From Acidimicrobiaceae bacterium (GTDB lineage Bacteria > Actinomycetota > Acidimicrobiia > Acidimicrobiales > RAAP-2), in the NCBI GenBank assembly GCA_003158855.1, contig PMLJ01000024.1, positions 19,150 to 69,024 of the forward strand: 49,875 nucleotides of DNA. The letters are read 5' to 3'. The notes beneath the pieces were generated by a model, which was given only the letters and a program-made list of their open reading frames with translations, ran no database searches and was not told where the DNA came from. This document shows, piece by piece, positions 38,547 to 38,663 of the stretch. The position numbers and the translations under genes are program-made. How positions within the stretch are numbered: position 1 is the first letter of the stretch; each line of letters opens with the position of its first letter.

Positions 38547-38570
38547 AAAAAACCCCCGCGAGAGCGGGGG
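38547..38570 (-). terminator. leuA attenuator terminator
   Basis: On the minus strand CCCCCGC-TCTC-GCGGGGG is followed by TTTTTT, a classical intrinsic terminator. It lies between the leader peptide stop (38594) and the leuA start (38512). Upstream, GGTGAGC (minus strand of 38587-38593) can pair with GCTCGCC (38576-38582). Segment 38577-38582 can alternatively pair with 38608-38613 inside the leader codons, giving the competing structures needed for attenuation. Confidence 0.85.
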
Positions 38571-38593
38571 CGGCGGGCGAGCGGATGCTCACC

Positions 38594-38629
38594 CTATCGA
38601 AGCAGTAGCTCGCTCTGGCCAAATGTCAT
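38594..38629 (-). CDS. leuL: leu leader peptide MTFGQSELLLR
   Basis: An 11-residue reading frame with three consecutive Leu codons (CTA, CTG, CTT) at residues 8-10, ending in TAG. It is followed by competing hairpins, an intrinsic terminator and leuA. When leucyl-tRNA is scarce the ribosome should stall on these codons and prevent the terminator. The putative promoter places the transcript start at or within a base or two of the ATG, so translation is probably leaderless. The peptide itself is expected to have no function beyond its translation. Confidence 0.85.
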   Translation of the reverse strand: MTFGQSELLLR

Positions 38630-38635
38630 AGACCC

Positions 38636-38663
38636 ATTCTACCTCCATTTTCGGTTCTGTCCA
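38636..38663 (-). promoter_or_regulatory. Predicted promoter of the leuL-leuA transcript
   Basis: On the minus strand TGGACA (38658-38663) and TAGAAT (38636-38641) are separated by 16 bases, close to the consensus -35 and -10 boxes. The expected start site is about 38628-38630, coinciding with the A of the leader ATG at 38629. Confidence 0.65.

Follow-up and report, generated by a model that had tools for sequence, protein, structure and literature searches.

The stretch of DNA analysed here (the window, 49,875 nucleotides) comes from an Acidimicrobiaceae bacterium whose genome assembly comprises 2.7 Mb in 50 contigs. A region with the features of an attenuator sits between leuA and divergent plus-strand ORFs: a promoter, a leader ORF, a hairpin (P1) and a terminator (T), all on the minus strand, occupy 117 bases upstream of leuA. 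Read along that strand, the features are:

38658 to 38663, minus strand: -35-like hexamer TGGACA, found by scan, 16 bases from the -10
38636 to 38641, minus strand: -10 hexamer TAGAAT, with a predicted +1 at 38629
38594 to 38629, minus strand: putative leaderless leader ORF MTFGQSELLLR, stop codon included, from sequence and comparison
38600 to 38608, minus strand: presumed regulatory Leu codons CTA CTG CTT, from sequence
38575 to 38594, minus strand: hairpin P1, 8 bp with loop ATCC, its first base being the last base of the stop codon, from folding and covariation
38553 to 38570, minus strand: stem-loop of the predicted intrinsic terminator T, from folding, scan and covariation
38547 to 38552, minus strand: U-tract (T6) of the terminator, from sequence and scan
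38519 to 38525, minus strand: probable Shine-Dalgarno sequence GGAAAGG of leuA, by eye
36836 to 38512, minus strand: leuA, 2-isopropylmalate synthase, 558 aa, by TIGR00970 and NF002991

The promoter (TGGACA at 38663-38658, a spacer of 16, TAGAAT at 38641-38636) is of the sigma-70 type with 10/12 matches, and this TGGACA/TAGAAT pair is the one promoter-like site in a scan of 38400-38900, where shuffled sequences give 0.1 each. The leader ATG lies at 38629-38627 and the stop codon at 38596-38594. Six bases separate TAGAAT from the ATG, so that the predicted +1 falls on the A of the start codon. This agrees with an earlier sequence-only reading of the region, which had described the 11-residue peptide with three consecutive Leu codons (present, on the minus strand) and had put transcription start on the ATG itself; its placement of the start at 38628-38630 was right about the codon and about one base off in position. 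The same reading had seen an intrinsic terminator with T6 followed by leuA, and both are borne out: T is kept in relatives, and the leuA product scores 794.1 against TIGR00970 (cut-off 697.4). The closest named LeuA relatives are Acidimicrobiaceae and Acidimicrobiales MAGs, at no more than 93% identity, with a few records labelled Acidobacteria or Chloroflexi; on this ground the window is assigned to the class Acidimicrobiia. The 85-nt leader folds at -40.1 kcal/mol (z -3.45); the gap between P1 and T is 4 nt, and 34 bases lie between the end of T6 and the start of leuA. A terminator scan of 38400-38900 gave 1 site against 0.6 in shuffles (sd 1.0), which alone does not put T above chance, and so the case for T rests on conservation. 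Two neighbouring ORFs have no Pfam match. One encodes a hydrophobic protein of 207 residues 3′ of leuA on the same strand (36187-36810, minus). The other, with 50 residues and a GTG start, diverges from the attenuator region (38692-38844, plus); by eye it has one likely membrane segment, and ends similar to its own (EWPDVP, TWPEVP) can be seen in the upstream DNA of two other leuA loci (L003 and L009).

Upstream regions of leuA were compared across 134 loci (54 + 80), chosen as the best-scoring genome matches and hence not a random sample. The leuA start could be anchored in 123; the other 11, with short flanks, were left out, some of them with leaders. Removing 16 duplicates left 107 loci distinct over the last 300 bases, among which near-duplicates may remain. 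In 96 of these 107 a leader ends in LLL plus at most three residues. Four loci were not evaluable (L002, which is not leuA; L047, which reads N; L068 and L116, at contig edges), and 99 of the remaining 103 have a leader carrying two or more Leu codons at or near its end, three of them with two only (L056, RLLR; L060, QLLR; L101, LLRT). The conservation of Leu codons in relatives, which the sequence-only reading had named as support, is thus found. No leader element was seen in four of the 103 evaluable loci (L053, L114, L131, L132). One leader (L110) was cut off before T, so that 98 were measured. Their Leu runs are three codons long in 71, four in 24 and two in 3, followed by no further residue in 13, one in 82 and two in 3. 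Of 485 shuffled regions, 3 contain an ORF ending in LLL with no more than three residues after it, against 95 of the 98 annotated real regions. Across leuA loci the Leu codons, the start position, P1 and T are all kept.

Of 28 leaders from loci with a LeuA identity of 77% or more (the window's own is one of them), 21 have 6 nt between -10 and start, 6 have 7 nt and 1 has 8 nt, with the start picked partly by the -10. A second scan therefore picked the promoter regardless of the start codon, going by how well it matched and by its lying ahead of the Leu codons. For 97 of the 98 leaders this gave a candidate promoter, and in 93 of these 97 an ATG or GTG in frame falls within -1 to +4 of the +1 predicted from it, as against 1 of 97 out of frame. 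In 73 of 98 a -35 with 4/6 matches or more stands 15-19 nt away from the selected -10, and an SD-like 4-mer is found upstream of the leader in 7/98 only. With a start codon at or a few bases from the +1 as predicted from the promoter, and no Shine-Dalgarno sequence, the leader is predicted to be leaderless in the usual sense, and its start position looks like a conserved design. A paper of 2000 on C. glutamicum ilvBNC is said, by its title, to describe a leader peptide without a ribosome binding site. The earlier view that a sensing ribosome on a leaderless message is unusual does not hold: leaderless leader peptides are already known in actinobacteria. Excerpts of PMC8079986 report from Streptomyces RNA-seq that S. 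lividans leuL1 (before leuA) and leuL2 (before leuS) are transcribed leaderless, and those of PMC5784534 report the same of the C. diphtheriae ilvB leader.

All 98 measured leaders have two hairpins 3′ of the Leu codons: 97 in the first fold, and L097 after manual placement of the U-tract (L063 was mended likewise). In an alignment of 59 sequences (of 64 from the 98 that are not near-identical; L098, L101, L105, L111 and L123 were left out), 95.2% of the cells of P1 and T are paired. Two-sided changes occur in 13 of 19 pairs (8/8 in P1, 5/11 in T, where three pairs are invariant). None of 500 shuffles reached the covariation of the real P1 and T, and sliding the partners by 1-3 columns lowered pairing to 39-51%; both controls are somewhat flattering because the structure was derived from the same, related sequences. 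In many members of the family (for example L016) the terminator stem reads CCTCCTGnGCC/GGCCAGGAGG, kept in sequence itself beyond pairing and with a single unpaired base on its 5′ side. Rfam 15 gave no match at gathering score for the window or for 11 loci, the window's own among them.

The two hairpins have no bases in common: P1 (20 to 41 nt in span) ends 0-7 nt, on average 3.9, before the first G-C pair of T (n=98). The first base of P1 is never more than 3 nt from the end of the stop codon in the 98 leaders (mean about -0.1, sd 1.1). The mean distance from stop to P1 is 0.31, -0.12 and -0.33 nt for leaders with 0, 1 and 2 residues after the last Leu, and since this register is the same whatever the number of trailing residues, it seems to be the ribosome at the stop codon that sets P1.

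As in amino-acid attenuators generally, the locus combines a short codon-rich ORF, a predicted intrinsic terminator and a downstream gene for the same amino acid. Judged from the sequence and its conservation, it is very probably an attenuator of leuA transcription that responds to leucine through the ribosome on a leaderless leader. This much of the sequence-only reading is supported by the comparison; its description of the attenuator as classical is not. The leu and trp leaders of enterobacteria are Shine-Dalgarno-led and work through overlapping helices (1:2, 2:3 and 3:4). The leuA element shares with them the logic of codon sensing and intrinsic termination, and folding finds no antiterminator here that shares bases with the terminator, nor is one conserved. 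With ribosome footprints entered as masks in folds of the 98 leaders (a treatment that covers neither kinetics nor tertiary structure), P1 forms with a mean probability of 0.96 when no ribosome is present; this falls to 0.71 once the last Leu codon occupies the A site and to 0.005 once the stop codon does. For T the mean stays at 0.98-0.99 in each of the three states, the lowest values for any one leader being 0.45-0.65 (0.45 in the fold free of ribosomes). Folding under ribosome constraints, which had been suggested as a check, shows loss of P1 and no change in T. In the leader of the window P1 survives as long as Leu1 or Leu2 occupies the A site but is gone once Leu3 does. Before the 3′ arm of T emerges, its 5′ arm has a mean paired probability of 0.35-0.39 in all three states, so ribosome position matters little there, and neither pairing compared between own and swapped sequences nor constrained folds found a conserved helix sequestering that arm in the 98 leaders. 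Since T is stable in every state and no sequestering helix was found, the textbook step of base-pair competition is missing.

A classical attenuator, with an antiterminator built from the leader codons, the 3′ arm of P1 and an arm of the terminator, is improbable here. The window does contain the pairing on which such a design would draw: GCGAGC in the leader codons (38613-38608) is complementary to GCTCGC (38582-38577), as had been noted, and the same 38577-38582 arm can, as also noted, pair with 38587-38593, which is P1. The first of these helices is present in the window but not conserved, being 6 bp or longer in 9 of 28 close relatives, and it makes no contact with the terminator. Its mean length in those 28 is 4.57 in own and 4.69 in swapped sequences, and it was rejected as the mechanism. 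A better signal comes from pairing of the leader with the linker plus the 5′ arm of T: 4.07 own against 3.73 swapped in close relatives, with 0/200 swaps as high, and 3.95 against 3.81 in all 98, with 5/200 as high; these helices are short, however, attaining at least 6 bp in only 1/28 close relatives and 2/98 leaders, and were set aside rather than rejected. Three further pairings were tried and rejected over the 98 leaders, by a swap test that is blind to pairing identical in all sequences. As antiterminators, the 5′ arms of P1 and T gave 4.40 own against 4.44 swapped, and the 3′ arms of P1 and T 4.62 against 4.63. The Leu run pairs with the 3′ arm of T over about 6 bp (at least 6 in 65/98), own and swapped values both being 5.98, and was reasoned to act the wrong way; in close relatives the values are 6.04 own and 5.85 swapped, with 15/200 swaps as high.

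The attenuator could work as follows, on a logic proposed likewise for M. tuberculosis ilvB1. Transcription would begin at the first base of the leader ORF, where a ribosome would start without a Shine-Dalgarno sequence. When leucine is ample, this ribosome would pass the Leu codons, reach the stop codon and mask the 5′ arm of P1; with P1 blocked, the terminator would fold and transcription would end before leuA. When leucyl-tRNA is scarce, the ribosome would wait on the Leu codons, P1 would form just ahead of T, and RNA polymerase would read through into leuA. Translation of the leader, stalling and control by leucine are what we infer, and from the folds we infer that P1 may be the switch, hindering T by closeness. 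How it does so is the least certain step. A formed hairpin a few bases 5′ of T could stop T from closing in the RNA exit channel, and such crowding at the polymerase RNA exit is favoured in view of the mere 0-7 nt between P1 and the first G-C pair of T.

In a sub-variant of the same attenuator, the stalled ribosome itself would block T, P1 would serve to remove spacer and not as an antiterminator, and an untranslated leader would terminate. This is unlikely, though the distances give it some substance: with P1 folded out, 9.6 nt separate the last Leu codon from the first G-C pair of T, with an sd of 2.7 as against 3.5 along the linear sequence, and ribosome masks leave T unaffected in folding. 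However, the distance from stop codon to P1 is steadier (sd 1.1) than that from Leu to P1 (sd 1.5, each added residue shifting it by about 3 nt). This favours the ribosome at the stop codon, in a test where only 16 of 98 leaders differ from one trailing residue, some of them LLLL with Leu in last place.

The scaffold is not confined to leuA. Matches to a covariance model (R2) at E 0.001 were found in 78 of 148 genomes of the class, under stricter filters, and in 26 of 197 genomes of the phylum (14 in the class, 12 outside). In 33 of the 38 best-scoring R2 loci the downstream gene encodes a LeuA belonging to either of two families. Genes 3′ of leaders with switched codons were called by NCBIfam. 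In four class genomes the scaffold precedes leuB, with leaders ending in VVVIR, VIVIP, IVVIP and IVIS (L179, L181, L182, L184); a Val/Ile leader at that place would tie a leucine gene to the supply of valine and isoleucine. Also in the class, cimA follows a leader ending in IIIIS (L180). Outside the class, one genome (G233) has the scaffold before ilvB (TVLVIH, L185) and before leuS (LGLM), while L159 (SLLLT) precedes leuS, a partial ORF just under the family cut-off, L161 (LVLIT) and L173 (ILVVT) both precede ilvB, and L156 precedes leuA. At L172 the downstream ORF reads like ilvB by eye; the scanned ORF matched no family. Ten switched or out-of-class leaders were refolded, and their P1 and T fold as at leuA. 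Their starts are more varied: a -10 of at least 4/6 within 4-11 nt of the start is found in 3/10 only, and of the other seven, four match TATAAT at 3/6 and one at 2/6, while L161 and L173 have no xAxxxT hexamer in that interval. A leaderless start is therefore less clear for these leaders. The leuB and cimA loci and the ilvB and leuS loci of G233 come from a further 20 stretches, mostly second and weak R2 matches, which also include six that precede leuA and seven that do not fit (L186, L188-L193), of which L188-L193 are without a branched-chain leader. L186 (G233:C78) lies before an aminotransferase-like gene, and its leader, MKLTRRSNK, has no branched-chain run.

From gene to gene the codons thus change and P1 and T remain, as a codon-reading switch predicts, and the codons probably sense. 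It is this that makes a plain terminator of an unregulated short transcript, with incidental Leu codons, very improbable: such a reading would account for the prediction of T in every ribosome state, but not for codons that are conserved and that switch with the downstream gene. The preferred attenuator can be tentatively widened into a portable cassette used by Acidimicrobiia and, before ilvB and leuS, by certain other actinobacteria, in which a hairpin at the stop codon would control an adjacent, non-overlapping terminator by physical exclusion at the polymerase and not by base-pair competition, and exchange of the terminal codons would retarget it to genes for Leu, Ile or Val; this broader proposal is possible, though we would put it somewhat below an even chance.

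Other branched-chain loci of the organism and its genus were also inspected. Before ilvB of the source genome (L194, G000:C34 before 7125) lies a leader, MTTRFSILSVVVGAWRR, with ILSVVV codons and a terminator; its GTG stands 6 nt after TTAGAT (by eye), so that it is probably leaderless, and a model R1 had no match there. No such leader was seen upstream of leuS in the same genome. A genome of the same genus (G009, 1.7 Mb, listed as 97% complete) has no leuA match and no attenuator, and may belong to a leucine auxotroph.

The kind of element is known: amino-acid attenuators with leaderless leader peptides occur in actinobacteria. According to excerpts of PMC8079986, S. lividans leuL1 and leuL2, like the leader predicted here, are transcribed leaderless and contain a Leu run, ahead of leuA and leuS respectively. 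Downstream of leuL2 come a hairpin and a run of uridines, as here, whereas leuL1 is described in the same excerpts as lacking a typical intrinsic terminator and leuA here has P1 and a terminator. The M. tuberculosis ilvB1 leader, as far as excerpts of PMC13236596 describe it, likewise combines an intrinsic terminator with a short ORF containing branched-chain codons; the structure that forms on stalling is prevented when the ribosome stands at the stop codon, and changing the LVVI codons to AAAA removes induction. It differs in its 166 nt leader, where antiterminator and terminator are mutually exclusive, whereas P1 and T here have no common bases. Mycobacterial polycysteine short ORFs (Canestrari et al., 2020, via excerpts of PMC9031893) are also leaderless and sense an amino acid through elongation speed, but they respond to cysteine and act on translation of downstream genes.

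The LEU element of Actinobacteria, in excerpts of PMC1262725, resembles the locus in having a leader ORF with Leu codons before leuA. There, the Leu codons are proposed to pair with the leuA Shine-Dalgarno sequence, and a pseudoknot of this kind acting on leuA translation is hardly credible here despite the shared layout of a Leu-codon leader before leuA in an actinobacterium: the Leu codons and the last 30 nt ahead of leuA can form a helix (base stem) of 3 bp at most, against a shuffle mean of 4.8, and a strong predicted terminator, a feature setting this locus apart from the LEU element, intervenes between leader and leuA. The same excerpts report that mutations in the S. coelicolor leuA leader had effects inconsistent with classical attenuation, which counts against an attenuator reading, as do the four evaluable loci without the element and the loss of P1 in the window with Leu3 in the A site. 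The open-access literature searched yielded no papers on attenuators in Acidimicrobiia and no description of non-overlapping hairpins with exchangeable codons; the two-hairpin layout without common bases appears, from the sequences compared, to be unusual and widely conserved.

These findings point to an RNA element that is widespread in one bacterial class (99 of 103 evaluable leuA regions) and matches nothing in Rfam 15 in the sources searched. With two hairpins that do not overlap, it is a clean system for testing whether attenuation can do without a base-paired antiterminator, and the way the codons differ between leuA, leuB, cimA and ilvB is evidence supplied by nature that the leader is read as a peptide. 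Leaderless codon sensing is indicated to be common in Acidimicrobiia.
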